From positions 1,240,001 to 1,304,000 of the forward strand of contig NZ_CP129965.1 in NCBI RefSeq assembly GCF_030503635.1: 64,000 nt of DNA, read 5' to 3'. The notes beneath the pieces were generated by a model. That model did no database searches. It had not been told where the DNA came from and saw nothing but the letters and a program-made list of their open reading frames with translations. The position numbers and the translations under genes are program-made. Below, one piece after another: positions 1,043 through 62,518 of the stretch (position 1 is its first letter; each line of letters opens with the position of its first letter). This stretch comes from Corynebacterium sp. P3-F1 (lineage in GTDB: Bacteria; Actinomycetota; Actinomycetes; Mycobacteriales; Mycobacteriaceae).

Positions 1043-2359
1043 ATGGTAGCAACCATGATCCTCACGCTGCTCATGACTCTGGAGGGATCACGCCCCGAAA
1101 TCTCGCGGCTGGTCAATGTCGAGGACGATGTCCGTCTCGATGAATTCGCGCCCGTCATTGACGCTGCTTTCGGATTCTCCGGAGCAGCCGGGCACCTCTA
1201 CATGGGCACCGCTGACGGTGAGCCGATTCTCTTCTCTTCCAACCCCAGTGGCGGTGAGCGCGACGAGACCGCCTTCACCCTCGGCGACATCGATTCAATG
1301 ACGTACGTCTACGACCCGTCGGCGAACTGGAACATCAAACTGGACATCCTCGGGGTCACGGACATCGACACACCGTCGCCCCTGCTTATCGACGCCCAAG
1401 GGCCCGATGTCATCGAACCCTGCGCCGGCCCTGAGCTCATGACGGCGTTTCACACGGAAGCGCGCCGTTTGGCTGCGGGACTGGACCCCGACATGAAAGT
1501 CTCACCGCTCCTGCTGAGCTTCATGCCGGTGATGAGCCCCGAGCGCCTCATCCAGCGTTTATCCCAAGCCGACCACACCACCGTGGCCGAACGCATCGCG
1601 TTCACTGCCGAGCAACTTTTCACGGAAGACGCAGAGGATTTCTCCGACGATCCGCGCGCTCCTGAACTCACCGACGAATTCGACTCCTTCATGGAGACAC
1701 GCCCCGATTTGCAGCAAATTCTCGCGCTCGACCCCAATCCTGAGCGCAATCCGACATTGATCGCGGCGATCTCCGAGTTCTTTTCGGACCGCGCACCGGA
1801 TGTCATGGAGGACAACCTCTACCCGTTCACCCGCGTTGTGGCCAATATCCGGGCATTCATTTACCACTGCTCCGAACCCATCCGCTTAACGTCGGGAGGC
1901 ACCCTACGGTCTCCAGATGTGCGCTCGCTTGCCGACGCCTTGTCGCTCAACATCTCCCCAGGCAACCACCGCGAGGAAGCGGTGCCGGCCCTGGGCGCAT
2001 TGCGCACCTTTCTGCAATTCGCGGACCTTTTGGAATCCCGCGACGGGATGCTCTGCGTCAACGAGGATGCTCTCGATCTAGTCACCAGCGCCGAAGCCGT
2101 CCTATACATGTTCGAGGAGGAGTTCTACCGCTTCTGCGAGGTGCACCAAGACGAAGACGGCGAACAGGTGCTCACATGGGCAGCCAACGCGGCCGGTCTG
2201 GGCATTCCGCCCGCATTTCTCGCCCCACCGAAGGATCCCTCCTTCACAGTGAACCTTCTCATTGCGTTGGGGATCTATGAGCCCTCATCCACCGAGACCG
2301 CGCCGGTTCTCACCGAGCCTGGCAGGGGAGTGCTCGCTGTGCTCCTGGATCTGGACTGA
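1043..2359 (+). CDS. Plasmid pRiA4b ORF-3-like domain protein
   Basis: The protein has 438 residues. The first ~110 match the pRiA4b ORF-3/IS1096 TnpR-like pattern (PF07929): an opening beta strand, a PEISRLVNVEDDVRLDEFAP segment, the FGFSGAAGHLY core, then a T-Y-x-YD-x-x-x-NW-x-I-K-L-D strand where relatives have Y-x-YD-x-GD-x-W-x-H. The remaining ~320 residues are mostly helical and acidic with no motif I recognise. The role of this family is unknown, although it travels with plasmids and mobile elements. The start may be ATG 1043 or ATG 1055. No strong ribosome site separates them. It is convergent with the DUF202 gene, six bases away. Confidence 0.6.
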   Translation: MVATMILTLLMTLEGSRPEISRLVNVEDDVRLDEFAPVIDAAFGFSGAAGHLYMGTADGEPILFSSNPSGGERDETAFTLGDIDSMTYVYDPSANWNIKLDILGVTDIDTPSPLLIDAQGPDVIEPCAGPELMTAFHTEARRLAAGLDPDMKVSPLLLSFMPVMSPERLIQRLSQADHTTVAERIAFTAEQLFTEDAEDFSDDPRAPELTDEFDSFMETRPDLQQILALDPNPERNPTLIAAISEFFSDRAPDVMEDNLYPFTRVVANIRAFIYHCSEPIRLTSGGTLRSPDVRSLADALSLNISPGNHREEAVPALGALRTFLQFADLLESRDGMLCVNEDALDLVTSAEAVLYMFEEEFYRFCEVHQDEDGEQVLTWAANAAGLGIPPAFLAPPKDPSFTVNLLIALGIYEPSSTETAPVLTEPGRGVLAVLLDLD

Positions 2360-2365
2360 CACGCC

Positions 2366-2695
2366 TTAGCCCGTAGCCACTAAGTACAGCCCCAGTCCTC
2401 CAAGTACGGCCATACCCACTGTGATCGCCAGAACTCCGATGGCGTTGGGCTCCACGTGCTCGTGGTACACGCCGTGCGCTTCCGCCCGGTATTCGGCCCG
2501 GTTTCGGACGATGATTGACAGCGCCAGAACCGCCAGCAGAATGATCGCACCGAACACCAAACTGGAATAGTTGTCGGACCAGCGCAGCAGCGTCAACGAG
2601 CACACCATCATGGCTGCGGCCGTTCTCGTCCACGACAGCGCAGTTCGCTCCGGTTGTAAGCCGGAATCGGCAACAGGAATCGGTGTTCGGGCCAC
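2366..2695 (-). CDS. DUF202 family small membrane protein
   Basis: This is a 109-residue protein with a GTG start placed 9 bases after an AAGGAA ribosome site. The N-terminal LQPERTALSWTRTAAAMMV is the DUF202 signature (x-x-ERT-x-L-x-W-x-RTA). It is followed by about three membrane helices with a short loop around residues 65-80. Function is unknown. It lies 12 bases downstream of a second, slightly longer DUF202 gene, so the two are likely co-transcribed and could form a heteromer. The leuS-vanZ-DUF202-DUF202 run has no large gaps, which suggests one transcript. Confidence 0.75.
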   Translation of the reverse strand: MARTPIPVADSGLQPERTALSWTRTAAAMMVCSLTLLRWSDNYSSLVFGAIILLAVLALSIIVRNRAEYRAEAHGVYHEHVEPNAIGVLAITVGMAVLGGLGLYLVATG

Positions 2696-2707
2696 TATGA
2701 CGGTTCC

Positions 2708-3103: not shown

Positions 3104-3113
3104 AGCTCACAGT

Positions 3114-3647: not shown

Positions 3648-3651
3648 CTAG

Positions 3652-6510
3652 TTACTTCACCACCAGGTTCACCATGCGGCCGGGCACCACGATGGTCTTC
3701 ACCACGTTCTTGCCGTCGATAAGCTCGACCACTCGTGCGTCGGCAAGCGCGATGCCCTCGATGTCTTCCTTTGTAGCCTCGGACGGCACGTCAACTCGCG
3801 CGCGCACCTTCCCGTTGATCTGGACGGGGATCTCAACGGTGTCATCGACGAGCAAGCTCTCGTCGAAAGTGGGGAAAGACTCGAAGGTGATCGTGCCTTC
3901 GTGGCCGAGACGCGCCCACAGCTCCTCGGCGATGTGCGGCGCGACGGGGGAGACCATCTGAACGAGCGGTTCCACCGTTTCACGTGAAACATTGCCGTTT
4001 TCCTTGCTCTCGCGCGCCTTGGTCAGGTAGTTCACGTACTCGATGAGCTTGGCCACGACCGTGTTGTCGCGCAGATGCTCGTAATCGTCGCGCACTCCGG
4101 CGATCGTGCGGTGGAGCTGCTTGGCGTCATCGTCACTCATCGCGGCATCGCTGACGGTGAGTTCTCCGGTCTCCTCGTCCACGATCAAGCGCCACAGGCG
4201 CTGGAGGAAGCGGTGCGCACCCACGACGTCCTTCGTCGCCCACGGGCGGGAAGTATCGAGCGGCCCCATCGACATCTCGTACACGCGCAACGTGTCGGCG
4301 CCGAAATCCCGGGCAATATCATCCGGAGCGACGGCGTTCTTGAGGGACTTACCCATTTTGCCGTACTCTTGGTTGACTTCCTCGCCGTTGTAGAAGAACT
4401 TCCCGTCCTTCTCCTCGACCTCCGCCGCCGGCACGTAAACACCGCGGGAATCCGTGTAGGCGTAGGCCTGGATATAGCCCTGGTTGTACAGGCGGCGGTA
4501 CGGCTCCTTCGACGTCACGTACCCCAAGTCAAAGAGAACCTTGTGCCAGAAGCGCGCGTACAGGAGGTGCAGGACCGCGTGCTCCACGCCGCCGACGTAG
4601 AGGTCCACTCCACCCGGGTCGTTCTCGCCGTGCTTTTCCGGCTGGGGGCCGGTCCAGTAACGCTCGTTCTCAATGTCGCAGAAAACGTCCGAGTTCGTCG
4701 GATCGATGTAGCGCAGCTGGTACCACGAGGAGCCGGCCCACTGCGGCATGACGTTGGTGTCGCGAGTGTACTGCTTCTCGCCGTCGCCGAGGTCCAGCGT
4801 GACGTTCACCCAATCAGTCGCCTTCGCCAGTGGGGGAGAGGGCTCGGAGTCGGCGTCGTCCGGATCGAAGGAGACCGGGTTGTAGTCCTCCACATCCGGA
4901 AGCTCCACAGGAAGCATCGATTCCGGCAGCGCGTGCGCCATACCGTCTGAGTCATAGACGATCGGGAAAGGCTCACCCCAGTAGCGCTGGCGGGCAAAGA
5001 GCCAGTCACGGAGCTTGTACTGGATACGTTCCTCACCGGCACCTTCTGCGACGAGCCAGGAAATAGCCTTCTCAATGGCGTCGCTCTTGCCCAGCCCGTT
5101 CAGGTCCAAACCGGACTCGTTTGCCGAGTTGATGTGCGGACCGTCTTCCGTGAACGCCGCTTCATCCACGTTCCCGCCGTCGAGCACAGGAATGATCGGC
5201 AGCCCGAAAACGGTGGCGAACTCATAGTCGCGCTCATCGTGAGCCGGCACCGCCATGATGGCGCCCGTGCCGTAGCCGGTGAGCACGTAGTCCGCAATGA
5301 ACACCGGCACCTGCTCGCCGTTCACGGGGTTCGTGGCGTAGGCGCCCAGGAAGACACCCGTCTTCTCCTTATTCTCCTGGCGCTCTACGTCGGACTTCGC
5401 CGCGATCGCGCGCTTGTACGCGTCCACAGCATCCTTCGGCGTCGCTTCGCCGTACGTCCACCGCTTATCGACGCCCCCCTCGTACCCATCCGCCACCAAC
5501 TCATCCACCAGCTCATGCTCCGGCGCGAGAACCATGTATGTGGCACCGAACAGGGTGTCCGGACGAGTGGTGAAGACGTTGATGGGGCCAGCAGCCGACT
5601 GGAAGGAGACCTCAGCACCACGGGAGCGGCCGATCCAGTTGCGCTGCATGGCCTTGACCTTCTCGGGCCAGTCGAGCAGCTCAAGATCGTCCAGCAACCG
5701 GTCGGAGTACGCGGTGATGCGCATCATCCACTGACGCAGACGCTTACGGAAGACGGGGTAGTTCCCGCGTTCCGACCGCCCGTCAGCGGTGACTTCCTCG
5801 TTAGCCAGCACGGTTCCCAGGCCGGGGCACCAATTGACCATGGAGTCGGAGAGGTAGACGAGACGGAACTCGTCGATCGCGCGCTGCTTTTCCGCGGTAT
5901 CCAATTCGGCGTAGGTGCGGCCATCCTTGGTGGTGCGCGTACCGGCCTCGAGCTCACTGATCAGCTCGGAGATCGGGCGCGCCTTCTGCTGCTCATCGTC
6001 GAACCAGGCGTTGTAAATCTGCAGGAAGATCCACTGGGTCCAGCGGTAGAACTCCGGGTCCGTCGTGGCCACGGAGCGGCGGCGGTCATGTCCCAGCCCC
6101 AGCGCGTCGAGCTGGCGGGTCATGTTCTCAATATTCGCCATCGTCGTGGTGCGCGGGTGCGTACCAGTCTGAATCGCGTACTGCTCAGCCGGCAGACCGA
6201 ACGCGTCGTAACCGAGCGTGTGAAGCACGTTCTTGCCCAACATGCGGTTGTAGCGCGCGAACACGTCGGTGGCGATGTACCCGAGCGGGTGCCCCACGTG
6301 CAGGCCAGCACCCGAGGGGTAGGGGAACATGTCCTGAACGTTGAGCTTGTCAGCCGGAAGCTCGGTGGATCCCGTCTCCGGCGCTAGCGGACCGACAGGG
6401 TTCGGGGCATCGAACGTCCCGTTGTCGATCCAGTGCTTCTGCCATCTCTGTTCGATCTCGTTGGCAAGGCCCGCAGAGTAGCGGAACGCCGGTCCAGTAG
6501 CGCTAGTCAT
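3652..6510 (-). CDS. leuS: Leucyl-tRNA synthetase
   Basis: This is a 952-residue class I aminoacyl-tRNA synthetase that charges tRNA-Leu in the cytoplasm. The HIGH-type signature is HVGH at residues ~71-74 inside [14 protein letters not shown]. The KMSKS loop is KMGKS near residue 720. Between them lies the CP1 editing domain with the T-rich [13 protein letters not shown] segment around 320. The C-terminal anticodon-binding and leucine-specific regions are complete. The start is ATG 6508-6510. The gene contains a parS-like site (3976-3991) read as NVSRET in a variable C-terminal linker, and two copies of the CGTCGATAAGC word, read as LID and VDK. The vanZ gene follows with no space for a promoter. 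Confidence 0.97.
3976..3991. other. parS-like centromere site (one mismatch) inside leuS
   Basis: CGTTTCACGTGAAACA differs from the bacterial parS palindrome TGTTTCACGTGAAACA only at the first base. It is the ParB loading site used for origin segregation. It is embedded in leuS coding sequence, where it encodes NVSRET. It is about 35 kb left of dnaA, with three further sites nearby. Confidence 0.8.
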
Positions 6511-6599: not shown

Positions 6600-7127
6600 T
6601 CAGCTTTCAGCCCACTCCACGATTGGTTCGAGCCGCCCCAAATCCACGCGGTCGACGTCCTTGTCGTAGGTGTCGATCATCATCTGGTCGTTCTCAGACT
6701 TCCCCGGTTTCATCCTGAGCATCGCGATGAGCCCCTTCATGATGTTCCGGTGCTTACTGTTTAACTCCGAGTAGTTCATCCGGCCAGGCAAGTAGAAGCG
6801 CTCCACGCTCCCCGCGAGGTTGCCCAAGAGCTCGCCCGCCGGGTCCTGCGCGGCAACGACATCGTCGAGCGTCATGCCGACAGTCGCCAAAGCAACACGT
6901 CGCTTTTCCGCGGCGCCCGCCTTTTCAAGCTCCTTGACGAACTTCACACCGGGGTGCGACGGCCCGTGAATGGGGGAGAGGACGATGATGGGGTCGGCAG
7001 AGGAGGCGTCGATAAGCGCTGCTTGCTCGTCGCTGATCTCCCGGGCGGTGACCCCGAGCCGCGCCGCGAGCGCGTCGGCGTACTGCTTGGTGGAACCGTA
7101 ATACGTTGCGTAGAAGACGTCCGTCAC
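6600..7127 (-). CDS. Flavodoxin-domain protein
   Basis: This is a 175-residue protein with a flavodoxin fold. The first strand leads to the FMN phosphate loop YATYYGSTKQYA (T-x-x-x-S/T-T-x-x-x-A pattern). The following SPIHGPSHPG resembles the second FMN loop S-P-I-x-x-G. It best fits the HemG-like flavodoxin_5 group (PF12724), which includes menaquinone-dependent protoporphyrinogen oxidases, but no haem gene is near. It is probably an electron carrier or small oxidoreductase. It is transcribed toward leuS and follows the TPM gene by nine bases. One CGTCGATAAGC word is read as ALIDAS. Confidence 0.7.
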   Translation of the reverse strand: MTDVFYATYYGSTKQYADALAARLGVTAREISDEQAALIDASSADPIIVLSPIHGPSHPGVKFVKELEKAGAAEKRRVALATVGMTLDDVVAAQDPAGELLGNLAGSVERFYLPGRMNYSELNSKHRNIMKGLIAMLRMKPGKSENDQMMIDTYDKDVDRVDLGRLEPIVEWAES

Positions 7128-8685: not shown

Positions 8686-9930
8686 CTACACGCGGGTGCT
8701 GCCTTCGGCGGTGGCGGGGCGGTCGTCGATAAGCGACTGCTCCTGCGACGTGCCCTCGATCTTGCCGGCTGCGAAGCGGTTGAGCACGAGCGCGATGGCG
8801 CCGTCACCCGTCACGTTGGCCGCAGTACCGAAAGAGTCAATGACGATGTAGGCTGCGATCATCAAAGCGACCATATCGTCTGTGAAGCCCAGCATGGACG
8901 CGAGGAGGCCGGTCGCCGCCATGATCGCACCGCCCGGGACACCCGGCGCGGCGATCATCATTATGCCGAGCAGCAGAATGAATCCGAGCGACAGACCCCA
9001 AGAAACGTCGAGACCGCCCATGTAGATGACGGCGAACGCGTAGAGACCGATCTTCATCATGGACCCGGACAGGTGGATCGTCGCACACAAAGGTACGACG
9101 AAACCGGCCACGTTCTCGTCCACCTTGTTGTTCAGGGTGGAACGCAGGGTGACCGGGATCGTCGCGGCAGACGACGACGTACCCAGAGCCGTGAAGTAAG
9201 CCGGGAGCATATTGCGCAGCGCAGTGAACGGGTTGATGCCCGCGACGATGCCGGCGATCAGGTACTGGCAGACCAGCAGGACGATGGTCATGAGGACTGC
9301 CAGAACCAGGACCTTGCCGAAGGCCGCCATGGTCGAGCCGAGATTCTCGTTCATGCCCAAGTTCAGGAAGATGCCGAAGATGTAGATCGGCAGCAGCGGA
9401 ATCACGAACGCGGTGACCACTTTCATGATCGCGCTCTCGAGCTCGGTGGCCACTTTGTACATGGTGTCGGACTTCACGGCAGTCATGGAAAGACCGATAC
9501 AGAAAGCCAAGACCAGTGCGGTCATCACCTCGAAGGGTGCGGGAATCTCCACCTCGAAAAACGGCGACAGGGAACCGGCGTCCACGTCGTCGACATTCGT
9601 GACCAACGTCTGGTCGCCGAGCATCCAGGGGTAGAGCGCCGCGGACAGACCCCACGCGATCAGACCGGAGATCACGGTCGAGCCGTAGGCCAGGCCGGCG
9701 GTAATGCCCAACCACTTCCCGGCGCCGCGGCCGAGACCAGCGATGGCAGGGGTGATCAGCGCGAAAATAAGGACGGGCACGAAGAAGCCCAGGAAATTGG
9801 AGAAGAGCCCGTTGAACGTGATGAAGATGCGGGCAAGCCACTCCGGGAAGAAGAAGCTGCAGCAGATGCCGAGCACGATGGCCACGACGATCCAGAACAG
9901 CAGCGACCTCGTGATCGACTTGGTGTTCAT
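8686..9930 (-). CDS. Dicarboxylate/amino acid:cation symporter (DAACS family)
   Basis: This 414-residue integral membrane protein belongs to PF00375. It carries the hallmark serine-rich re-entrant loop TALGTSSSAATIP around residue 255 and the substrate/sodium segment APGVPGGAIM near 330. FVVPLCATIHLSGSMM precedes the latter. The final helix contains D-S-F-G-T-A-A-N-V-T-G-D, the conserved transport-domain motif. It imports acidic or small neutral amino acids or C4-dicarboxylates with sodium or protons. The SstT-like versus GltP/DctA-like choice cannot be made by eye. The last 20 residues are hydrophilic and include a CGTCGATAAGC word read as SLIDDR. Termination is at the parS hairpin. Confidence 0.85.
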   Translation of the reverse strand: MNTKSITRSLLFWIVVAIVLGICCSFFFPEWLARIFITFNGLFSNFLGFFVPVLIFALITPAIAGLGRGAGKWLGITAGLAYGSTVISGLIAWGLSAALYPWMLGDQTLVTNVDDVDAGSLSPFFEVEIPAPFEVMTALVLAFCIGLSMTAVKSDTMYKVATELESAIMKVVTAFVIPLLPIYIFGIFLNLGMNENLGSTMAAFGKVLVLAVLMTIVLLVCQYLIAGIVAGINPFTALRNMLPAYFTALGTSSSAATIPVTLRSTLNNKVDENVAGFVVPLCATIHLSGSMMKIGLYAFAVIYMGGLDVSWGLSLGFILLLGIMMIAAPGVPGGAIMAATGLLASMLGFTDDMVALMIAAYIVIDSFGTAANVTGDGAIALVLNRFAAGKIEGTSQEQSLIDDRPATAEGSTRV

Positions 9931-10107: not shown

Positions 10108-10548
10108 ATGACTGGAGTGGTTATCAGTGTTGTCTTCATTATCTTCGCACTCGCTTTGCTGATTCCAGGAGTGCTCGCCGCCCTCGGCCGCTTGCCCGGC
10201 AATAACATGGTCGGGTTGCACGTGCCGGAGGTGCGCAAGGACGAAGAGATCTGGGTGCAGGCCCACAAGGTGACCGGTCCATACCTGATCCTCGGCGGTC
10301 TCGCCCTCGTCTTCGGCGCAGCCTTTTCTTTCATCGCCGACGGTTGGCTCTGGGCCGGCCCCGTGATCTTGGCGATCGTCGCGGTTGCCGCTGTGGCCGC
10401 GGCCGGCAACCAAGGTGCACGCGCAGCGAAGCTCTTCGCGCAAGCGAAAGAGAGCGAGACTGACTCCGCTTCTCAAGCCACGCAGCCCGCCCCCCAAGTC
10501 GATCTCGGTGCCCTGCGAAACGCCGCCCGCCGCGCAGACGACAGGTAG
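10108..10548 (+). CDS. SdpI-family membrane protein
   Basis: The protein has 146 residues from the ATG at 10108. A first helix (~2-22) leads into ALGRLPGNNMVGLHVPEVRK, the SdpI signature (G-R-L-x-x-N-x-x-x-G-x-R-x-P). This is followed by W-x-x-A-H-K and two more helices around 58-100. The C-terminal ~35 residues are hydrophilic. In Bacillus, SdpI is an immunity and signalling protein, but most homologues have no known role. It lies directly upstream of trpE in the same direction, so read-through into the trp operon is likely. Confidence 0.75.
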   Translation: MTGVVISVVFIIFALALLIPGVLAALGRLPGNNMVGLHVPEVRKDEEIWVQAHKVTGPYLILGGLALVFGAAFSFIADGWLWAGPVILAIVAVAAVAAAGNQGARAAKLFAQAKESETDSASQATQPAPQVDLGALRNAARRADDR

Positions 10549-10573
10549 TCTCATTGCAGAAAGGAGGCCTGAC

Positions 10574-12115
10574 GTGAGCGAGTTCCGCCCCCAGGTCACG
10601 CACCTCGATGTGCGCTACCACGCCGACGCGTCGACCTTATTCGCCGCTATCGGCGGCACAGACATGACGGATTCTGTGCTGCTCGAGAGCGCCGACATCA
10701 CCACCAAGTCCGGGCTACAGTCGGTCGCGGTCCTCGGGGCTTCCCTACGCGTCACGTGCAACGGACCGGATGTCGCGGTGGAGGCACTCAGCACGGACGG
10801 CGAGGCGATCGCAGACCGCCTGCACGGGCAGCTCGCGGACTTCGTGACGGGGGAGCGCACCTTCCGCTTCCCGGTCTCCACCGCCGCGGACGAGCGTGAG
10901 CGGCTCACCGCGCCGAGTTCCGCGGATGTCCTCCGTGCGCTCACAACTGGTGCCGGTTACACCGACACCGAGCACAGCACGCTTCCCATGCTCGTCGGCG
11001 GATTCGCTTTCGACTACTTGGCCACCTTCGAGGACCTGCCCAGCGTCGCCGATAGCACGAACACGTACCCCGACTACCAATTCATCCTCGCGGACATCGT
11101 GCTCACGATCGACCACCGCGCGAACACCGCTCGGCTCACAGGGGTGGATGGGGGACAGGGGGACGTCGATAAGCGGATGCGCGAATTCGCCGAGCTTATC
11201 GACGCCGCCGAGCCCCCCACCCCCCGCTCATCCAGCGCCGAGGAGCCACTGCGCGTGGAAGCGAGCATTGACGACGCTGACTTCCGCCGCGATGTGGAGA
11301 AGCTCAAAGACAATATCTACAACGGCGACATCTACCAGGTGGTGCCGGCGCGGGCGTTCACTGCCGAGTGCCCGGACGCGTTCGTCGCGTACCAGTGCCT
11401 CCGCGAGACGAATCCGTCGCCGTACATGTTCTATGTCCGCGGACTCGACCGGAACGGCGACGCATATGAGCTCCTCGGCGCATCACCCGAATCGAACCTG
11501 AAGTTCTCAGCTGCCTCCCGCGAGGTGCAGCTGTACCCGATTGCCGGGACACGGCCGCGCGGCACCACGCATGAATTGGACACGCGTATGGAGCTCGAGC
11601 TGCGTACCGACGCCAAGGAGATCGCCGAGCACACGATGCTCGTCGATCTAGCACGCAACGACCTCGCACGCGTCGCTGAGCCCGGTACCCGCCAAGTCCG
11701 TGAGCTCCTCCAGGTCGACCGCTACTCCCGCGTCATGCACCTCGTCTCCCGCGTGACAGCGACCCTCTCAGCCGACCTCGACGCCCTGGACGCTTACCGC
11801 GCGTCCATGAATATGGGCACTTTGACCGGCGCCCCCAAGCTGCGCGCAACGCAGCTAATCCGTGAGCTCGAAGGCGTCCGCCGCGGCTCCTATGGCGGGG
11901 CAGTGGGGTATCTGCGCGGCAACGGTGACTTCGACACATGCATCGTCATCCGCTCCGCGTTCGTGCGCGGCGGCGTAGCCACCGTCCAGGCAGGTGCTGG
12001 TGTCGTGCGCGATTCCATCCCGCAGGCCGAAGCGGACGAGACTCTGCACAAGGCCTACGCCGTCCTCAACGCCATTGCCATGGCCAGCGGCCGCAAGGTA
12101 GAGGTGATCCGATGA
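10574..12115 (+). CDS. trpE: Anthranilate synthase component I
   Basis: The protein has 513 residues with a GTG start seven bases after AAGGAGG (10561-10567). It makes anthranilate from chorismate together with TrpG, the first step of tryptophan synthesis. The N-terminal LLES motif (36-39) is the tryptophan feedback site known from Corynebacterium. The C-terminal chorismate-binding half has PIAGTRPRG, D-L-A-R-N-D-L-x-R-V and GTLTGAPKL. No Trp-rich leader peptide fits in the 25-base gap before it, unlike the attenuated C. glutamicum operon. A Gly/Asp-rich linker near residue 197 carries two inverted CGTCGATAAGC words. It is trpE rather than pabB because trpGDCBA follow. Confidence 0.95.
   Translation: MSEFRPQVTHLDVRYHADASTLFAAIGGTDMTDSVLLESADITTKSGLQSVAVLGASLRVTCNGPDVAVEALSTDGEAIADRLHGQLADFVTGERTFRFPVSTAADERERLTAPSSADVLRALTTGAGYTDTEHSTLPMLVGGFAFDYLATFEDLPSVADSTNTYPDYQFILADIVLTIDHRANTARLTGVDGGQGDVDKRMREFAELIDAAEPPTPRSSSAEEPLRVEASIDDADFRRDVEKLKDNIYNGDIYQVVPARAFTAECPDAFVAYQCLRETNPSPYMFYVRGLDRNGDAYELLGASPESNLKFSAASREVQLYPIAGTRPRGTTHELDTRMELELRTDAKEIAEHTMLVDLARNDLARVAEPGTRQVRELLQVDRYSRVMHLVSRVTATLSADLDALDAYRASMNMGTLTGAPKLRATQLIRELEGVRRGSYGGAVGYLRGNGDFDTCIVIRSAFVRGGVATVQAGAGVVRDSIPQAEADETLHKAYAVLNAIAMASGRKVEVIR
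11164..11204. repeat. Inverted pair of the CGTCGATAAGC word inside trpE
   Basis: CGTCGATAAGC (11164-11174) and its exact complement GCTTATCGACG (11194-11204) face each other across 19 bases and could form an 11-bp stem. They encode GDVDK and ELIDA in a non-conserved linker. Confidence 0.9.
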
Positions 12116-13789: not shown

Positions 13790-15251
13790 CGAGCAAGCCT
13801 CTGACCAGCGCGGATACGACACAGGACCGTCTGCGGGGTTGCCGACCGTCCTTGAAGGCATCATCACGTCCCGAAAACGTCACATTGACGCAATTAAAGC
13901 CCGCATCGCTCATGTTGATCCCGCGGAGCTCCCGCGGTCCGACCGGTCCCTCTACGATTCGCTCGACCGCCCCGGAACGCGATTCATCATGGAGTGCAAG
14001 TCCTCCTCACCGTCGCTCGGCATGATTCGCGAACATTACCAACCGGGAGACATCGCCGCGGTCTATTCGCGCTATGCCGCCGGAATCTCAGTGCTGTGCG
14101 AGCCCGAGCGTTTCGGGGGTGACTACGACCACCTCGCCACTGTCGCCGCCACAACGCACCTTCCGGTGTTGTGCAAAGACTTCATCATCGACCCGGCACA
14201 GATCCACGCCGCGCGCTATTTTGGTGCCGACGCCATTCTCCTCATGCTCAGCGTTCTCGACGACGATGAATATACGGCTCTTTCCGCCGAGGCAGAGCGC
14301 CTCGGCATGGACGTGCTCACCGAGGTGATCGATGAGGAAGAAGCGGCTCGCGCAACGAAACTGGGCGCAAAGATCTTTGGCATCAACCACCGGAATCTTC
14401 ACGACCTGTCCATCGACCTCGAGCGTTCGGCCCGCCTCGCGCCCCTTGCTCCCGAAGACGCGCTCGTTGTTTCCGAGTCCGGCATCCGCGATGTCGAGAC
14501 CATTCGACGCCTCGGCGACCATTCCGACGGCTTCCTCGTCGGATCCCACCTAACCGGCACCCCGGATATCGACTGGGCCGCCCGCATGTTGGTCTACGGG
14601 CCCAACAAGGTGTGTGGTCTTACCTCCCGGTCAGCCGCACAAGTCGCTCGCGCAGTCGGCGCCCTCTACGGAGGCCTCATCTTCGAAGAGGTCAGCCCCC
14701 GCAATGTTTCACGTGAAACATCGGAAGATATCATCGCTCACGAGCCGGGATTGCACTATGTGGCAGTGAGCCGAAGGACCGACGGGTGGCAGGATCTGGT
14801 CTTCCCGGGAATTCACGCGGTTCAGATCCACGCCCCGTACCGTGGCTCGTTGGACGCCGAGAGGGACCTTGTCCGAACGGTCCGCGATACCGTCCGATCC
14901 ATCGACCCCGGGGTGGAAGTGTGGCGAGCCGTCTCCATGTCAGAGCCCGATGGGCCGGCAGTGGCAGCGGGACTGGCGGGCGACGTCGATAAGCTTGTGC
15001 TCGACGCGAAAGACGGCGGATCCGGCATTGGCTTCGACTGGTCCACGATCCCCGACGAGGTCCGCGCGCACAGCCTCCTCGCCGGAGGGTTGAGCCCCGA
15101 CAATGTCGAGGATGCCCTCGCCGTGGGATGCCTCGGGGTGGACCTGAACTCCGGCGTCGAATACCCGGCGTCCGCAGGTTCGTGGACCGGAATGAAGGAT
15201 GCCGGAGCCCTGCGTACCACCTTCGACCGGATCCGCAATTTCCATTATTGA
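13782..15251 (+). CDS. trpC: Bifunctional indole-3-glycerol phosphate synthase / phosphoribosylanthranilate isomerase
   Basis: This is a 489-residue fusion catalysing two successive steps. Residues 1-~265 are TrpC, with the conserved [29 protein letters not shown] and [12 protein letters not shown] strands. Residues ~275-489 are TrpF, with NKVCGLTSR, the catalytic Cys, and the terminal D-L-N-S-G-V-E segment. The start is GTG 13782 after GAAGGAG, overlapping the trpD stop. The TrpF part contains a perfect parS site read as NVSRET and a CGTCGATAAGC word read as GDVDKL. Fusion of trpC with trpF is typical of corynebacteria and enterobacteria. Confidence 0.95.
14705..14720. other. parS site, perfect, inside the trpCF coding region
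   Basis: TGTTTCACGTGAAACA is a perfect match, read in frame as NVSRET between the TrpF strands. It is the parS site closest to oriC in this window, about 24 kb from dnaA. Confidence 0.95.
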
Positions 15252-15310: not shown

Positions 15311-16567
15311 ATGACTGACACCACACAGGCACGCGACGGCGGAAGCACTATCCTGCCAGCGTATTTCGGTGAATTCGGCGGACAGTTCGTCGCCGAGTCT
15401 CTGCTTCCGGCACTCGACCAGCTCGAGCAGGCATTCGTCGACGCGTGGAACGACGACCAGTTCATGGATGAATACCGCGGGCTACTGCGGGATTACCTAG
15501 GACGCCCAACGCCACTGACTGAGGCACGGAACCTGACAAAGGACAACGAGTACGCCCGTATCTTCCTCAAACGCGAGGACTTGGTTCACGGTGGCGCACA
15601 CAAGACGAATCAGGTGATCGGCCAAGCCTTGCTGGCCAAGAAGATGGGCAAGACGCGCATCATCGCTGAGACCGGTGCCGGCCAGCACGGCACCGCCACG
15701 GCGCTAGCGTGCGCTCTGATGGGTCTCGACTGCGTCATTTACATGGGCGCCAAGGACATGGAGCGCCAAGCACCGAATGTCTACCGCATGCGACTGATGG
15801 GCGCAGAGGTCATCGGCGTGGACTCCGGCTCCGGCACCCTCAAGGACGCCGTGAACGAGGCACTTCGAGATTGGACCGCGACCTTCCACGAGTCCCACTA
15901 TCTGCTCGGCACCGCGGCCGGCCCGCACCCGTTCCCGACGATCGTGCGTGAATTCCACAAGGTCATCTCGGAAGAGGCCAAGGCCCAGATGCTGGACCGG
16001 ACGGGCGCGCTACCGGATGTCGTAGTCGCCTGCGTCGGCGGCGGCTCCAATGCCATCGGCATGTTCGCGGACTTCATCGACGAGGAATCAGTGCAACTCG
16101 TCGGCACGGAACCGGGAGGGGAGGGCATGGACTCCGGCAAGCACGGCGCCGCGATCGCCGCGGGGACCGTGGGCATCCTCCACGGGACGAAGTCGTACTT
16201 GATGCGCAACCCGGACGGCCAGATCGAAGAGTCCTACTCCATTTCGGCGGGCCTCGACTACCCGGCTGTCGGGCCGCAGCACGCGCACCTGGCCAAATCT
16301 CGCCGCGCACAATACGTCCCTGTCACCGACGGCGATGCCCTGCGCGCCTTCCAGCTTCTGTCCCGTAAGGAGGGCATCATCCCTGCGCTCGAGTCCTCCC
16401 ACGCACTCGCGTACGCGCTGCAGCGCGCCGACGAGGCAACGGACGCCAAACAGCCGGTCACCATCCTCGTCTCGCTATCCGGCCGCGGCGACAAAGACGT
16501 CGCTCACGTGCAACAGGCGCTCGAAGAGCGCCCGGAATACGTACTGAACACAACGAAGGAGAAATAA
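15311..16567 (+). CDS. trpB: Tryptophan synthase beta chain
   Basis: This 418-residue PLP enzyme condenses indole and serine. The start is ATG 15311, 59 bases after trpCF, after AAGGATTACCC. The PLP lysine is in [17 protein letters not shown], and the phosphate-binding GGGSNAIG loop lies near residue 240. The [10 protein letters not shown] segment is intact. The N-terminal FGEFGGQFV is the standard TrpB opening. The stop overlaps the trpA start by one base (TAATG), consistent with alpha-beta complex assembly. Confidence 0.97.
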
Positions 16568-17409
16568 TGTCCCGTTTCACCGCGCTGTTTGATACTCTGC
16601 GCGCCAAGAACGAAGGCGCATTCGTTCCCTTCGTCATGCTCGGCGACCCGACGGCGAAAGAAGCCGTCGACATCATCGACACGCTTATCGACGCCGGTGC
16701 CGACGCTCTCGAACTCGGCATCCCCTTCTCCGACCCTGCGGCCGACGGCCCAACCATTCAAAAATCGCATCTGCGAGCGTTGGACGGGGGCGCTTCCGTG
16801 GATACGTGCTTCGAACAGATCCGTGAGATTCGCCGCCGCCACCCGGACGTGCCAATCGGGATGCTCGTGTACGCGAACGTCCCGTACGTCCGCGGGCTGG
16901 ATTCGTTCTACAACGAACTCCATGAAGCGGGCGCCGACGCAGTCCTCATCCCCGATGTCCCCGTCCGCGAAGGAGCGCCCTTCATCGAGGCGGCGACCGC
17001 CGCCGGAATCGACCCTGTCTTCATCGCCCCAGCTCAGGCACGCCCTGAAGTGCTCGAAGGCGTGGCCGCGCACTCCCGCGGCTACATTTACGCCGTGTCC
17101 CGCGACGGAGTGACTGGTGCCGAGCGCGAATCCCAAACGCAGGGGCTTGCCGACGTCGTCTCCAACATCTCCTCCTACAACGGCGCCCCCGTTCTGCTAG
17201 GATTCGGCATCTCAACTCCGCAGCACGTGGCCGACGCCATCGCCGCAGGTGCAGCTGGCGCCATCACGGGCTCCGCGATAGCTAAAATCATCGACACCCA
17301 CGTGGACTACAACCACCCGAACCCCGGGTCCGTCCGCGACATGGGGGCCCTGACGAAGGAGCTCCGAGAGTACGTTGGCACCATGAAGCAAGCTACGATG
17401 AAGCCATGA
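16567..17409 (+). CDS. trpA: Tryptophan synthase alpha chain
   Basis: This 280-residue TIM-barrel subunit cleaves indole-3-glycerol phosphate. FVPFVMLGDP near the N-terminus and LELGIPFSDPAADGP carry the catalytic Glu and Asp. GFGISTPQHV and GAITGSA bind phosphate. It is the last trp gene, starting within the trpB stop. A CGTCGATAAGC word is read as TLIDAG. The TGA overlaps the ATG of the next gene. Confidence 0.97.
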   Translation: MSRFTALFDTLRAKNEGAFVPFVMLGDPTAKEAVDIIDTLIDAGADALELGIPFSDPAADGPTIQKSHLRALDGGASVDTCFEQIREIRRRHPDVPIGMLVYANVPYVRGLDSFYNELHEAGADAVLIPDVPVREGAPFIEAATAAGIDPVFIAPAQARPEVLEGVAAHSRGYIYAVSRDGVTGAERESQTQGLADVVSNISSYNGAPVLLGFGISTPQHVADAIAAGAAGAITGSAIAKIIDTHVDYNHPNPGSVRDMGALTKELREYVGTMKQATMKP

Positions 17410-19482: not shown

Positions 19483-19600
19483 CATGACTCCTTGGGCAAA
19501 AGGCTTCCGGCACAGCAAGCATAAGACTTCATCCCAGATGAAGCAGCACGTACATAGAAAATTCACCCACGTAACACGCAGATTTCGCTTATCGACGTTT

Positions 19601-20689: not shown

Positions 20690-21298
20690 CTAGTTGTCCT
20701 CGAGGTCCGCGGGGAACGTGGAGAACAACGGCAAAGGCATCGGCTGGCGGCGCAGCACGTCGCTGTACAGATCGGATGCGGCAGGGGCGATCACATCGGT
20801 GGGGAGGGCAGGGGCGACGTACCAGTCGCCGCGTTCGATCTCCTCGTCGAGCTGCCCCGGAGCCCATTCGGCGTAGCCGGAGAAGACACGCATGCCTTCA
20901 AGCAGGCCGGCGACGCTTGCAGGTTCCGCCTGCAGATTCACATGAACCAGGCGGTTAGCCAGCCGGGTAAACTCCGGGTGGTCCTCGATGACGGTGCCGG
21001 TGGCGGTCATCCCGACAGCGATCGCGGCCTGGGGGCGCAGCGGGCCACCAATGTAGAGGGCCTGGGGCTTTGCCACCTCAGGCAGCCACTCGGGCAGGAC
21101 GGAGTGGACTGCCACTTCGCTGCGGCGGTTGAGGATGACGCCGAAGGTGGCGTCGGGGGAGACGTCGATAAGCAAAATGACGGTGCGGGCGAAGTCTTCG
21201 GCGAGCATGCCCGGCGCGGCGACCAGCAGCATGCCGGGCGCCGGCGTTTCGCGTTCGAGCGCGGTGAACAAGCGGTCCGCGTAAAAGAACTCAGCCAT
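20690..21298 (-). CDS. YqgE/AlgH family protein (UPF0301)
   Basis: The protein has 202 residues from the ATG at 21298, preceded by GAAGG. The family pattern is evident: PAPGMLLVAAPGM, FARTVILLIDVSPDATFGVILNR, ALYIGGPL, and RVFSGYAEWAPGQLDEEIERGDWYV. The biochemical role of the family is unsettled. It overlaps the pcnA stop by eight bases. A CGTCGATAAGC word falls in LLIDVS. Confidence 0.9.
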   Translation of the reverse strand: MAEFFYADRLFTALERETPAPGMLLVAAPGMLAEDFARTVILLIDVSPDATFGVILNRRSEVAVHSVLPEWLPEVAKPQALYIGGPLRPQAAIAVGMTATGTVIEDHPEFTRLANRLVHVNLQAEPASVAGLLEGMRVFSGYAEWAPGQLDEEIERGDWYVAPALPTDVIAPAASDLYSDVLRRQPMPLPLFSTFPADLEDN

Positions 21299-22820
21299 TT
21301 TCCTTCTCCCACCAAGCCTTGAGCTCCGCAACCGCCTCATCGTGGTCGAGCTCGCCACGCTCGAGGCGCAGGTCCTTCATATACTTCCAGGCTTTACCCA
21401 CCCCGGGGCCTGGTTTGAGGCCCAGAATCTCCATGATCTCGTTGCCGTCAAGGTCGGGGCGAACGCGGGCGAGGTCCTCCTTGGCGGAGAGATCCGCGAT
21501 GCGCTCCTCAAGCTGGTCGTACGTGCGCTGCAGGCGGGCGGCCTTCTTCGGATTGCGCGTGGTGCAGTCGGCGCGGACGAGCTTGTGCAGGCGGGGGAGG
21601 AGATCCCCCGCATCCGTGACGTAGCGGCGCACAGCCGAATCGGTCCACTGGCCCTCACCGAAACCGTGGAAGCGCATGTGCAGATAGACGAGCTGCCCCA
21701 CATCCTCGATGACGTGCTTCGGGTATTTCAGCTTGCGCATGCGCTTGCGGGTCAGCTTCGCCCCGACAACCTCGTGGTGGTGGAAGGACACCCCGCCGCC
21801 GGGCTTGAGTTCGCGCGTGTCCGGCTTGCCGATGTCGTGGAGCAGCGCCGCCCACCGCAACTTCAGGTCGGGGCCCTCTTCCTCGAGGTCCGTGGCCTGA
21901 CGCAGCACGGTGAGGGAGTGGGCGTAGACGTCCTTGTGCTGCATGTGCTCGTCGCGCTCGAGCTGGAGCGCCGGGACCTCGGGCAAGATGTGGTCCGCCA
22001 AACCGGTCTCCACCAGCAGGTCAATGCCCTCCCACGGCTGCAGGCCCAGCATGAGCTTGTCCAACTCCGCCTGGACGCGCTCGACCGTGATGCGGGTGAT
22101 CTCCTCCGCCATGTCCGTCATGGCCTGTTTGACGCGGGGGCTGACGGTGAAGCCCAACTGCGACACGAAACGGGCCGCGCGCAGCATGCGAAGAGGATCG
22201 TCGCGGAAGCTCACCTCGGGCGCCTGGGGGGTGTCCAGAACACGGTCGAGAAGGTCCTTCAAACCGTCGACGGGATCGTGGAAGTCCAGCTTGAGCGTTG
22301 CAGCTCCGTCGGCGGCGGTGGAGGGGACAAGTTCGATCGCCATGGCGTTCGCCCGGAAATCGCGGCGGACCAGGTCTCCCTCGATGGTGTCGCCGAAGGT
22401 GACTTCGGGGTTCCGGGTCACGCCGTCATACAGATCGGCACGGAAGGTAGTCACCTCCACCTGCTGGCCCAGCTTCACGGTAGACACCGTTCCGAATTGA
22501 ATGCCGGTGTCCCACACAGCCTCGCCCCAGTCCGTCAAAATCGCCTTGATGGTCTCGGGCCGGGCTGAGGTGGTGAAGTCCAGATCGTGGCCCAACCGGC
22601 CCAGCATCGCGTCGCGCACGGGCCCGCCGACGAGGTAGAGGGACTCGCCCTGCGCCGCGAACGCCGCGGCGAGCGGCCCGAGCAGATCAGCGAGCTCGCT
22701 TACCGCGCTCTCCGCACGGGCCAGCAAAGCGATGAAAGCTGTCGGATCCCCCTTCTCCGGCAGGTTGAACAGCTCCGCTGGGTCGGTGGAATTCGTCGCA
22801 CTGTTCATCATGCTGTTCAT
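21291..22820 (-). CDS. pcnA: CCA tRNA nucleotidyltransferase
   Basis: The protein is about 509 residues; ATG 22820 is assumed and GTG 22832, spaced from AAGG, is an alternative. The nucleotidyltransferase core is [13 protein letters not shown] then HDLDFTT, with the catalytic aspartates. An HD domain follows ([12 protein letters not shown]). It adds or repairs the 3' CCA of tRNAs. It is the corynebacterial/mycobacterial form with a C-terminal HD domain, divergent from the Nudix gene as in Mycobacterium tuberculosis (Rv3907c/Rv3908). Confidence 0.92.
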
Positions 22821-22917: not shown

Positions 22918-23775
22918 ATGGCTCCGCACACCTCCGGCGACTCCGATTCGCCGCAGAACTCTACGCGCAAGCGCAAACGCCGCCGGCGCGCGTCGAGCCA
23001 CGCCCAAAACAAGGGCAGCAACAGTGCCGCCAGCAGCTCCAACGCGGGCAACCCTCACGCCAGCGACTCCAGCGGCAACGGAAGGAACAGCGGCAGCACC
23101 AAGAACAACAACAAGAACCGCAACCGCCGCAAGCACCGCGGGGGCAACAACAACCAGCGTCGCCAGGGCGGCAACCAGAAGAATAACCAGCGAGGCGGCC
23201 AGAGGAACCGAGGCGGCGGCACCAATAAATACCGGAAGCCGCAGCAGCATGCTGCGCACACCTCGCAAAACATGGAGACCCGCGACGAGACCAGTGCAGG
23301 TGGCCTCGTCGTCTCCGGCATGGCAGAAGCCGTCGCCCCCGACGGTTCCGTGGACCTGTCGCAGATTTACGTTGCACTCATCGGGCGGCTCGATCGCCGC
23401 GGCCGCCTGCTGTGGTCCATGCCCAAAGGCCACGTCGAGCAGGGCGAGCATCAGTGGGACACCGCACGCCGCGAGGTCTGGGAGGAAACCGGCATCATCG
23501 GCGAACCGTTCGCGGAGCTGGGCACCATCGATTACTGGTTTGTGTCCAACGGGGTGCGCATCCACAAGACGGTTCACCACAACTTGCTGCGTTACGTCGA
23601 CGGCGTTCTGAACGACGAGGACCCGGAGGTCACCGAGGTTGCTTGGGTGCCGGTCAGCGAACTGATCGAGCATTTGGCGTACGCGGACGAGCGGAAATTG
23701 GCCCGCACCGCCTTCGACAAAATGCCGGTTTACGCGCGGGCGGAAAAGGAAGCGGGAAGGACCACTCCCCGGTGA
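22918..23775 (+). CDS. Nudix hydrolase with a disordered basic N-terminus
   Basis: The protein has 285 residues. The first ~115 are low complexity, dominated by Asn, Arg, Lys, Ser, Gly and Gln, and probably disordered and nucleic-acid binding. The Nudix box is intact at ~171-193: G-H-V-E-Q-G-E then R-R-E-V-W-E-E-T-G. It is positionally equivalent to M. tuberculosis MutT4 (Rv3908) next to pcnA. Likely substrates are (d)NTPs or nucleoside diphosphate derivatives. Its TGA overlaps the GTG of the next gene. Confidence 0.88.
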
Positions 23776-29613: not shown

Positions 29614-29631
29614 TGCGCACTGAAGTGCGCA
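29614..29631 (+). terminator. Hairpin after murJ
   Basis: TGCGCAC-TGAA-GTGCGCA forms a perfect 7-bp stem five bases after the murJ stop. There is no T-run, so termination is uncertain. Confidence 0.35.
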
Positions 29632-29714
29632 CCACTGGCGGGCGGCACCCGACCATGCCGGGCAGAATGGACACCGCACCATTCATCGGGGACTTGTTCG
29701 GGGGACGAGGACGC

Positions 29715-38614: not shown

Positions 38615-38737
38615 CGTTGTGGATTCACATGTTCAGGGCGATGTTCACACTCATGTGAGTTGTGAAAACCCGCCGACGTGGCCGTGGTGCCGCGCGGCGG
38701 GCAGTAGAAGCGATTGGGAAAAGGAAAGCGGGCTTTC

Positions 38738-40399: not shown

Positions 40400-40431
40400 C
40401 TTCCGCGGCTTATCGACGACACCTTGAAACG

Positions 40432-44117: not shown

Positions 44118-46241
<2,124 letters not shown>

Positions 46242-57059: not shown

Positions 57060-57069
57060 CTGGAATGCG

Positions 57070-59784: not shown

Positions 59785-59817
59785 GGGGCGGAGCTGCGAG
59801 GCGAGGGGGCAGAGAGG

Positions 59818-60456: not shown

Positions 60457-60547
60457 CGCGTGGCGGCGGGAAGGTTCTTTTCGGAGTCCAAGCGTCTAAA
60501 AACCGAGAGCCCCGTGTCTCGGCACCGCCGCGCCCAGCTTCGCCCTG

Positions 60548-61213
60548 CTACTTGCCCGGATTCTCCCGCTGCGCGTCATCGAGCGTGTCCAGCGTGGACA
60601 GCTGTTCGTCGATGGAGTTCAGCAGCTCCTCATCGCGCTCCGCAGGTTCCTCGCTGAGCGGACCGTGGTCCTTACCGGCGGTGACGCGTGTGGAACCCTG
60701 TGTCGGCGGCTGAGTCTTCTGCACTGCCGGCTTCGCAGGCGCCGCCTTCTGCGGAACCTTCTTGGCTGGTGCCTTTTTAGCCGGTGCCGGGGAATCGGTG
60801 CCGAAGATGAGGTAGTAGACACCGCCGGCGATGGCGGCGAGCAGGGCCAGGATCAGGGCGCCAAGGGCAATGCCGTTGCCGCTCTTGCCGGACTTGCCGG
60901 ATTTCTTGCCCTGCTTCTTCTGTTTCTTCAGGGCCTTTTCCAGCTCCTTCTTCTCTTTTTTGTCCAGCTGGTCTTGCTCGAACAGGGCGCGGCGGCGGTC
61001 CAGGCGGGCGTGAGCTGCACGGGTCACATCGCCGGCCTGGAGGCGGGCGGCGCTGAAGTTGGAGGTGTCTTCATTGATCTCGTCGTTGTCGCCGCGCGCC
61101 ATTAGGCGGACGGCCTCGTACACGTCGCGCTTCTGCTCGTTGTTCAGGTCGCGGTAACGGTTGAACAGTGTTCCCGCCACCGCGGAGGCGATGCGGATAT
61201 TGCGGAGGTTCAT
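60548..61213 (-). CDS. Single-pass membrane protein with charged coiled-coil
   Basis: The protein has 221 residues. An N-terminal segment (IASAVAGTLFNRYRDLNNEQ) precedes a strongly charged coiled-coil (~85-110: KKEKKELEKALKKQKKQGKK). A membrane helix (ALGALILALLAAIAGGVYYL, ~115-135) follows, then a Pro/Ala/Lys-rich external linker and an acidic end. I do not recognise a family. The topology suggests an envelope-linking protein. It is divergent from metF. Confidence 0.6.
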   Translation of the reverse strand: MNLRNIRIASAVAGTLFNRYRDLNNEQKRDVYEAVRLMARGDNDEINEDTSNFSAARLQAGDVTRAAHARLDRRRALFEQDQLDKKEKKELEKALKKQKKQGKKSGKSGKSGNGIALGALILALLAAIAGGVYYLIFGTDSPAPAKKAPAKKVPQKAAPAKPAVQKTQPPTQGSTRVTAGKDHGPLSEEPAERDEELLNSIDEQLSTLDTLDDAQRENPGK

Positions 61214-61549
61214 CGTGTGTTCTGGCCTTTCGTCGTGTGGAGCAACGCTATGTGCTTCCCCACACTAGTGAACTGAGCGGACACCGTCGCGGACTTTCGC
61301 TGTCCTTCGCTATAGTTCCCCGGAAAGTGAACCGCTCGGTTCAGTTTCAGCGAAATTCGCGGTTTTATATTCACACGCGGAACAGTCGTGAACTGCATCA
61401 ATGGGCGCGGAAACAGGGGACCCCTTTGATCGCTCAAACCGGGCCGGGTTACATTCCAACCAGTTTCCAAGTGCTGAGCCCAGCCAACCGGACACCCGCG
61501 TGCCCGGCAGAACGAACACCTGAACCGATAGGACGAAAGGACTCCTTCG
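61214..61549. promoter_or_regulatory. Intergenic region with candidate metF promoter
   Basis: This 336-base divergent region holds TTGATC (61426-61431) and TACATT (61450-61455) 18 bases apart on the plus strand, about 90 bases before the metF ribosome site. I do not see a McbR TAGAC operator or a riboswitch I can name. The minus-strand gene may use TATAGC near 61310. Confidence 0.45.
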
Positions 61550-62518
61550 TTGACTGAAGGACACTTTTCGTCGAGGCTGTCGGCGTCTGCGCCCTTGGAC
61601 CCCCTCGACGAAGCACCACACGACGGTGCCCGCCACGCTGTGAAGCGGCAGACGAGGACCGCCCTGAGTTTCGAGCTCATCCCGCCACGCCATGATGCAG
61701 ACGAGGCGAAGCTGAAAGACCTCATCACCGGCTTGGCGGCCTACAACCCCGACTACGTTGCCGTGACCAGCTCCCGCCGCTCCGGGTGGCTGCAGGGCAC
61801 CGCCGACTTCATCTCCCGGCTCAGCGAGAGCACCAACCTGCCCACGATCGCGCACCTAGCGTGCACCGCGGGGCCCACCGAGGAGTTGGCCGATTGGATT
61901 CGCACGCTCATCGACTCCGGTGTGCGCGGCTTCCTCGCCCTGCGCGGCGACCTCCCGGAGGGGGAGGACCACCTACCGGAGGGCTACCTCCAGTACGCCA
62001 CTGAGCTTTTGACCCTGATCCGGGAGATCGAGGAAGAAAACGCCTACCGCCTCGCAGCGGGCAAACTCGCTCTTTCGGTGGCGTGCTACCCGTCCGGGCA
62101 CGCGGAATCGCCCACGCCCGACCTCGATTTGGACGTGCTCTTGTCCAAGCAGCGGCTCGGCGCGGATTTCGCCATTACGCAACTGTTTTTCGAGGCGGAG
62201 GATTACCTTCGCTTCGCGGAGCAGTCCCGGATGGCGGGCGTGCGCATCCCCCTGATCCCCGGCATCATGCCTATGACGAGCCTGAAGCGGGCCCAGCGCA
62301 TGGGCGTGCTGTCGGGGATCGAGGTGCCGCAGCGTGTCGTCGATAAGCTGGCGGCGGCGAGCGACCCGGACGAGGAATACGAGGTGGGCATGCAGCTCAC
62401 CGCGGAACTCGCCGGCAAGCTTCTCGACGCCGGCGTGGGCGGCCTGCACATCTACACCCACAACAACCTGGCGGTGACGCAAGACCTGCTGTCGCGGCTC
62501 GGAATCGAACCTAAATAG
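61550..62518 (+). CDS. metF: Methylenetetrahydrofolate reductase
   Basis: The protein has 322 residues with TTG start eight bases after GAAAGGA. The TIM-barrel pattern is clear: SFELIPPRHDADEAKLKDLI, PTIAHLAC, GVRGFLALRGDLP, GADFAITQLFFEAEDYLRF and PGIMPMTSLKRAQRM. It makes 5-methyl-THF for methionine synthesis. It lies 20 bases upstream of metE. A CGTCGATAAGC word is read as VVDKLA. Confidence 0.93.
   Translation: MTEGHFSSRLSASAPLDPLDEAPHDGARHAVKRQTRTALSFELIPPRHDADEAKLKDLITGLAAYNPDYVAVTSSRRSGWLQGTADFISRLSESTNLPTIAHLACTAGPTEELADWIRTLIDSGVRGFLALRGDLPEGEDHLPEGYLQYATELLTLIREIEEENAYRLAAGKLALSVACYPSGHAESPTPDLDLDVLLSKQRLGADFAITQLFFEAEDYLRFAEQSRMAGVRIPLIPGIMPMTSLKRAQRMGVLSGIEVPQRVVDKLAAASDPDEEYEVGMQLTAELAGKLLDAGVGGLHIYTHNNLAVTQDLLSRLGIEPK

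Follow-up and report, generated by a model that had tools for sequence, protein, structure and literature searches.

The 64-kb chromosomal stretch analysed here (the window) belongs, judged by its sequence, to a Corynebacterium close to, yet different from, C. urinipleomorphum (G001), with a DnaN that is 97% identical to the DnaN of that species at a DNA identity of 88%. Dispersed over the window is a non-palindromic word of 11 nt, CGTCGATAAGC, with 17 exact copies between positions 1384 and 62348, nine on the plus strand and eight on the minus strand. This count had been reported in an initial annotation of the window and was reproduced in our recount; the word is the commonest 11-mer of the window, and 100 dinucleotide shuffles of the window gave a mean of 0.01 copies (maximum 1). 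The copies are listed below with gene coordinates from our own simple gene calls, together with one example of the G-rich tract that lies 5′ of the word.

1384..1394, minus strand: word copy in gene 1043..2359, antisense
3714..3724, plus strand: word copy in gene 3652..6510, antisense
5463..5473, minus strand: word copy in gene 3652..6510, sense; unaltered in 5/5 compared relatives
7007..7017, plus strand: word copy in gene 6600..7127, antisense
8724..8734, plus strand: word copy in gene 8686..9930, antisense
11164..11174, plus strand: word copy in gene 10385..12115 and first arm of an inverted pair with a gap of 19; unaltered in 5/5 compared relatives
11194..11204, minus strand: word copy, forming the other arm of this pair
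14984..14994, plus strand: word copy, intergenic
16683..16693, minus strand: word copy in gene 16567..17409, antisense
19587..19597, minus strand: word copy, intergenic
21163..21173, plus strand: word copy in gene 20690..21358, antisense
23969..23979, minus strand: word copy in gene 23412..26267, antisense
25535..25564, plus strand: G-rich tract, example 5′ of the copy at 25565..25575
25565..25575, plus strand: word copy in gene 23412..26267, sense
30203..30213, minus strand: word copy in gene 29625..30326, antisense
40408..40418, minus strand: word copy directly downstream of frame 38714..40399, which we take to be dnaA
46467..46477, plus strand: word copy, intergenic, downstream of frame 44136..46241, which we take to be gyrB
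62338..62348, plus strand: word copy in gene 61550..62518, sense

The copies had been described as mostly genic, and 13 of the 17 do lie in genes; with a coding fraction of 0.815, however, this is neither an excess nor a deficit, and no enrichment of words between genes was found. A codon-preserving control, as proposed in the initial annotation, left the signal standing: the predicted genes of the window hold 13 copies vs. 0.47 after synonymous codons were shuffled within genes (sd 0.66, maximum 3, n = 300). The same shuffle gave 40 vs. 1.99 copies for the G003 sample and 42 vs. 2.22 for G128, and, for two variant words introduced below, 65 vs. 2.02 (CGTCGGCAAGC in G067) and 9 vs. 0.31 (CATCGACAAGC in G118). 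Codon use and protein sequence therefore do not explain the word, although genic copies prefer two reading frames, mostly antisense xxG CTT ATC GAC G. Ten further sites of the window differ from the word by one base, nine of them solely at position 7, and the window and the G003 sample together contain 44 exact copies, 18 single mismatches at position 7 and 12 at all other positions together. Single deviations are thus rare outside the positions at which the word varies between lineages (see below), a hallmark of the DNA uptake sequences (DUS) and uptake signal sequences (USS) of Gram-negative bacteria. Two other words of the window, GTTTCACGTGA (8 times) and CTGTGGATAA (7 times), presumably resemble parS and DnaA boxes.

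The abundance of CGTCGATAAGC extends to whole genomes. Six close relatives of the window (G001–G005 and G014) carry 407–679 copies each, compared with 1–4 copies of the reversed word used as control. Among 14 related genomes found through DnaN (G001–G014, in order), the counts were 529, 494, 679, 455, 407, 226, 26, 26, 20, 13, 586, 353, 4, and 465 (reversed 0–4), and over 151 Corynebacterium genomes they ranged from 0 to 686. Where CGTCGATAAGC is scarce, a variant may prevail: CGTCGGCAAGC occurs 603 times in G015, 551 in G067, 495 in G008 (C. propinquum) and 422 in G010, genomes with only 59, 71, 26 and 13 copies of CGTCGATAAGC. Further dialects in the sampled genomes were CGTCGGAAAGC and CGTCGTAAAGC, alongside CGTCGGCAAGC, in G067, CATCGACAAGC in G118, CATCGGCAAGC in G102 and G020, CATCGATAAGC in G147, CGTCGAAAAGC in G040 and CGTCGTCAAGC in G107; in G027 the 3′ end of the word is altered too (CGTCGGCAAT, 10 copies in 44 kb; L120, L170, L134). 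The dialects vary at positions 2, 6 and 7 (in G027 also at the word end), and C.TCG..AA is constant.

With the generalised word CRTCGNNAAGC, 110 of the 151 genomes were rich (at least 5-fold over the reversed word), nine lay between 2- and 5-fold, four between 1.5- and 2-fold, and 28 were null (below 1.5-fold). Copy numbers in the rich genomes have a median of 1128 and reach up to 1969 (vs. 112 reversed), and the density of the word is about one per 2–6 kb. These numbers, with a length of 9–12 nt and copies on both strands, are again those of DUS and USS. A draw of 121 genomes from the family gave only six at 5-fold or more, all of 2.2–2.7 Mb, and the next genome stood at 2.7-fold; four of the six were also in the genus draw and the other two are without a stated genus, so that the words appear to be confined to Corynebacterium. 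In a gyrB tree of 38 rows, read by eye, the CATCG genomes G148, G020 and G118 group together, few dialect genomes, and no further CATCG genomes, being on the tree. Dialects that differ at few positions, follow subclades and keep a core are a further hallmark of DUS and USS, the fit to the tree being judged by eye. On the same tree 15 of the 18 null genomes group as a single clade, and G028, G091 and G051 are null amid rich neighbors; C. spheniscorum is word-poor as well. Richness has therefore probably been lost several times.

Comparison of the window with its relatives showed that the word is conserved as a sharply bounded unit. At aligned sites, window words were intact in 13/15 cases in G001, 13/14 in G003, 6/14 in G002, 5/12 in G004 and 4/10 in G014, vs. 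fractions of 0.22, 0.16, 0.16, 0.08 and 0.10 for background 11-mers; of the 17 window words, 2, 3, 3, 5 and 7, respectively, were unalignable and set aside. For G001 and G003 identity was 0.98 within the word, 0.77 in the ten bases on each side, and 0.77–0.86 in flanking blocks. Conversely, of 85 words of the relatives compared with the window, 54 fell in alignments, where 40 were intact, 11 substituted and three touched by a gap. None of these 54 was a whole-word insertion, the other 31 lying outside alignments; no gap was found at window words in the 65 aligned of 85 window-to-relative sites, and clean empty sites were not seen in the aligned relatives. A mobile or selfish repeat inserting its own copies might be invoked for so many exact copies, and for the 31 words outside alignments. 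We give this explanation practically no credence, since insertions and gaps were missing at the sites just described and the flanks of the copies are unrelated in sequence and biased in composition only. In G002, seven of the eight altered word sites are one base off, and the genome still has its 494 copies (L090–L093); judged from these sequences, the changes look like a recent relaxation of constraint.

The compositional bias lies mainly upstream. The 30 nt 5′ of genic words were richer in G than control positions matched for gene, codon phase and strand, in each of the six copy sets (p = 2e-3 to 4e-11): 0.518 vs. 0.323 in the window (13 copies), 0.485 vs. 0.329 in G003 (40), 0.458 vs. 0.332 in G128 (41), 0.377 vs. 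0.320 in G067 (103), 0.337 vs. 0.275 in G008 (29) and 0.393 vs. 0.280 in G118 (23). The 3′ side is G-rich too in G067 and G-poor in G128, and near-miss words in rich genomes carry a similar G-rich tract. Furthermore, close tail-to-tail inverted pairs (gap 0–20) were found ten times in 1.58 Mb vs. 2.5 expected, with 1, 1 and 0 pairs in the other classes; three of the ten (window, G001 and G003) represent one orthologous site.

Foreign and accessory DNA was poor in words. The complete genome of G067 was sampled as 20 even 20-kb stretches, of which two were without the dialect words of this genome: a prophage with tape measure, portal and terminase genes (L058), and a siderophore-type nonribosomal peptide synthetase (NRPS) cluster of low GC, with an ornithine/lysine hydroxylase, a 3863-aa NRPS and two generalised words (L045). 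L058 has a terminase with 79% identity to its counterpart in Corynebacterium phage Juicebox and 99% identity to the one on an IMG/VR contig (L174). Phage and prophage pieces (eight pieces, 195 kb, terminases 62–99% alike, two near-identical) held 0.10 generalised words per kb (reversed 0.04) vs. 0.62 (reversed 0.03) in the rest of the G067 sample, and more distant viral loci (296 kb) held 0.04 (reversed 0.07). The under-representation expected of DUS and USS in such DNA was thus seen for the prophage, the phages and the NRPS cluster, with the chromosome of one genome, G067, as the sole yardstick and several phage hosts not known to be word-rich. Scarcity in phage DNA and absence from some lineages could also mark the word as a self-signal for a system of defence or modification, such as a site of methylation or protection. 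Such sites are usually shorter and usually not enriched, and 9–11 fixed positions would make a long one; we regard this reading as very unlikely.

Neither strand nor chromosomal position structured the words. In the G067 sample 57 of 125 dialect words were on the leading strand, as assigned by GC skew, with no trend toward origin or terminus, and left of oriC in the window there are seven words on each strand. The lack of strand skew described in the initial annotation was thereby borne out; its imbalance around oriC (14 copies in 41 kb to the left, three in 23 kb to the right) is present in the window, but rests on few copies and had no counterpart in the complete genome at 20 even steps. These observations bear on the main rival, a Chi-like recombination hotspot, at which the word would halt a helicase-nuclease during break repair and so be kept in core DNA. 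Chi sites share with the word a density of this order, scarcity in phages and variation between species. However, a Chi of 11 positions plus a G-rich tract would be long, known Chi sites having 5–8 nt, and RecC, the Chi-reading subunit of RecBCD, was found in 0/43 panel genomes, rich or null, in a search aimed at RecC, with AdnAB not examined; the control gave a match in E. coli as well as in B. subtilis, one of the two exceeding the cut-off. Weakened by the missing strand skew and the missing RecC, a Chi-like role seems improbable to us. No more probable is recognition by a protein that organises the nucleoid or serves segregation, which would suit a conserved, sharply delimited word spread across the chromosome. 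Against it stand the lack of a palindrome and of strand skew, a G067 sample in which no domain around origin or terminus was seen, and the scarcity in phage DNA; it would also leave unexplained the G-rich tract and the joint switch of many hundred sites to a new dialect.

A pilus and ComEC, the machinery associated with DUS and USS, are encoded in Corynebacterium, word-poor genomes included. ComEC was present in 151/151 genomes, and at the loci examined the gene order is degV, comEA, comEC, holA, with comEA in 21/21. Of 52 panel genomes, 50 had a match to T2SSE (Pfam; Tad-type ATPase) above the cut-off, mostly one strong match each. The locus consists of a Tad operon with the T2SSE ATPase and its neighbors, followed by a helicase-like and a topoisomerase-like gene; by resemblance, we take the neighbors to be tad-like genes, a Flp-like pilin and two small pilin-like proteins, and the last two genes a helicase and a topoisomerase relative. 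With ComEC in every genome, its presence is ruled out as the cause of richness. Loss of the Tad pilus in null genomes was likewise unsupported, the ATPase being found in 23/23 panel nulls and the small pilins in most null loci; ATPase scores were lower in the large null clade. A ComEC open frame of at least 640 aa was found in 26 of 29 word-poor and 14 of 107 rich genomes, a count that omits G015, G090, G119 and G143 (no full frame or a partial match) and 12 genomes between the cut-offs. The longer ComEC of word-poor genomes may reflect descent, because 15 of the 18 nulls on the gyrB tree form one clade. The extra length is partly N-terminal, PF03772 beginning at residue 304 in G044 and at 186 in G128. 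In C. urinipleomorphum, where the words are conserved, ComEC was matched in two pieces; comEC may be interrupted there, or the assembly wrong at this place. A small ankyrin-repeat gene follows holA (L102, 12103–12492, and relatives) in many, mostly word-rich, Corynebacterium genomes; missing in several rich genomes and present in some low ones, it was ruled out as a word-specific gene.

By these genomic tests the word behaves like DUS and USS, and its most likely function is that of a DNA uptake signal. We think it probable that CGTCGATAAGC is the local dialect of a DNA uptake sequence shared across Corynebacterium, which would be a third, independently evolved system and the first outside Gram-negatives. 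The initial annotation had already drawn a parallel with uptake sequences, naming a nucleoid-protein or methylase target as other options, and abundance, dialects, absence of replication-strand skew, bounded conservation, mainly substitutional origin and phage scarcity all fit the parallel; the dialects, the G-rich 5′ tract and the distribution had escaped it. The role of the word in uptake, the protein that reads it and its origin by biased uptake are what we infer from these genomic patterns. In the mechanism we propose, the 11-nt word and the G-rich stretch on its 5′ side would together form a double-stranded binding site for a surface receptor, most likely a part of the Tad-type (type IVc) pilus or of the ComEA path. 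DNA bearing the word would be preferred at uptake and cross the membrane via ComEC, and homologous recombination would then swap out the resident allele. Because uptake would favor word-bearing alleles, point mutation and biased replacement would let words build up on both strands of core DNA, and a shift in receptor preference would slowly convert the whole word set and so give rise to dialects. Somewhat less firmly, though still with the balance in its favor, we propose that most of the genus is, or recently was, naturally competent, with selectivity conferred by a two-part signal, the G-rich tract and C[GA]TCGNNAAGC, and by a receptor in the Tad pilus or mycomembrane; this would be a third independent invention and the first in a Gram-positive phylum. 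By analogy with Neisseria and Haemophilus, which have outer membranes of their own, the origin of uptake sequences is possibly tied to an outer, here mycolate, membrane.

Several observations weigh against a role in uptake. ComEC and Tad genes also occur in word-poor genomes, including G028 and G091 among rich ones, and comEA was present in all five null comEC loci examined; since null genomes keep both, these genes alone cannot explain the words and are not diagnostic. Conversely, the rich genome G120 had no T2SSE match and the rich G011 one below the threshold, although assembly gaps are possible. Among the Tad loci of 20 genomes, some incompletely called, no candidate receptor matched the words in presence and absence. 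Any evenness of word spacing beyond the random level is slight at best (CV, the coefficient of variation, 0.76–1.02), the excess of inverted pairs does not extend to gaps of 21–60, and three sites had small gaps at the word. Juicebox contains seven generalised words in 41 kb vs. one reversed and the NRPS cluster its two, so that phage and NRPS DNA is word-poor, not word-free. Among the literature matches listed there was no report of natural transformation in Corynebacterium, and uptake activity itself is thus assumed. Finally, the enriched words of the genus may have more than one cause, because another word, GCGGCGTCC, is enriched in two null genomes.

This word emerged from k-mer scans of null genomes (19–144 kb per genome), in which nothing resembling CGTCGATAAGC was seen, short samples of this kind being prone to miss rare words, and in which GC-rich 9-mers were prominent in three genomes. 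In the null sister genomes G133 and G151, GCGGCGTCC exceeded the codon shuffle (21 vs. 6.0 and 17 vs. 3.9) and, genome-wide, the reversed word (885/124 and 1635/197; 7- to 8-fold, both strands alike; L121, L167, L144, L111, L140). Ratios were about 3.7-fold in G122 (464/127) and G051 (446/117); in most of the 16 remaining genomes of this search the counts were close to or below those of the control. GCGGCGTCC is possibly a second, unrelated dispersed word, and some word-poor lineages may have moved to an unrelated word such as this one.

If the uptake function is real, Corynebacterium would offer a third case, in Actinomycetota. With its many dialects and repeated losses, it would be an independent system on which to test why uptake guided by sequence tags evolves. 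It may then be possible to transform members of the genus with DNA that bears the right tag, and dialects would channel the gene flow among them. Among the matches listed, nothing on point about uptake sequences or competence in Corynebacterium was found in the literature searched, outside which most subscription journals and preprints lie; searches with CGTCGATAAGC and its complement matched, by title, only work on Legionella in Tetrahymena, on plants and on a duck virus clone.

Chi, KOPS, parS and MatP-type sites are dispersed short words of chromosomes as well. In contrast to Chi and KOPS, the word has no leading-strand skew (the 57/125 of G067), with no RecC found in the 43 genomes, and unlike parS, MatP and nucleoid-occlusion sites it has no palindrome and no chromosomal domain in the G067 sample. 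Among actinobacteria, transformation of Micrococcus luteus involves tad and com genes, including Tad-type ATPases and ComEA, according to the excerpts of PMC6667448. Corynebacterium shares with it ComEC/ComEA and Tad-type ATPase genes, but M. luteus has two tad ATPase genes, compared with mostly one strong match per Corynebacterium genome, and those excerpts mention no uptake word. In the available portions of two further sources, DUS and USS are described as words of 9–12 nt with hundreds to thousands of copies, clade dialects, a kept core, rare single deviations, clustering in the core genome and inverted pairs (PMC12616744, PMC5031613). USS are there given a biased flank reaching to about 32 nt, two dialects and an origin considered independent of DUS, and a 2025 text places sequence-tagged uptake only in Neisseriaceae and Pasteurellaceae (PMC12616744/PMC5031613). 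As far as these portions list them, and leaving aside uptake itself, action as terminators and a preference for genome-maintenance genes, the traits fit the Corynebacterium word, the core-genome point resting on phage and NRPS DNA. Like the DUS of Neisseriaceae, which are read by ComP, the word has about 10–12 nt, is non-palindromic, occurs in hundreds to thousands of copies, forms subclade dialects around an inner core, and shows core-genome bias and, possibly, a preference for inverted pairs. It differs from them in being unrelated in sequence, in its occurrence in Actinomycetota, and in having a G-rich 5′ tract and Tad-type pilus genes with no ComP counterpart identified. With the USS of Pasteurellaceae, as described in the same portions, it shares the combination of a short core and a compositionally biased flank of about 30 nt; the flank of USS is AT-rich and downstream, whereas that of the Corynebacterium word is G-rich and 5′, and the dialects of Corynebacterium are more numerous.

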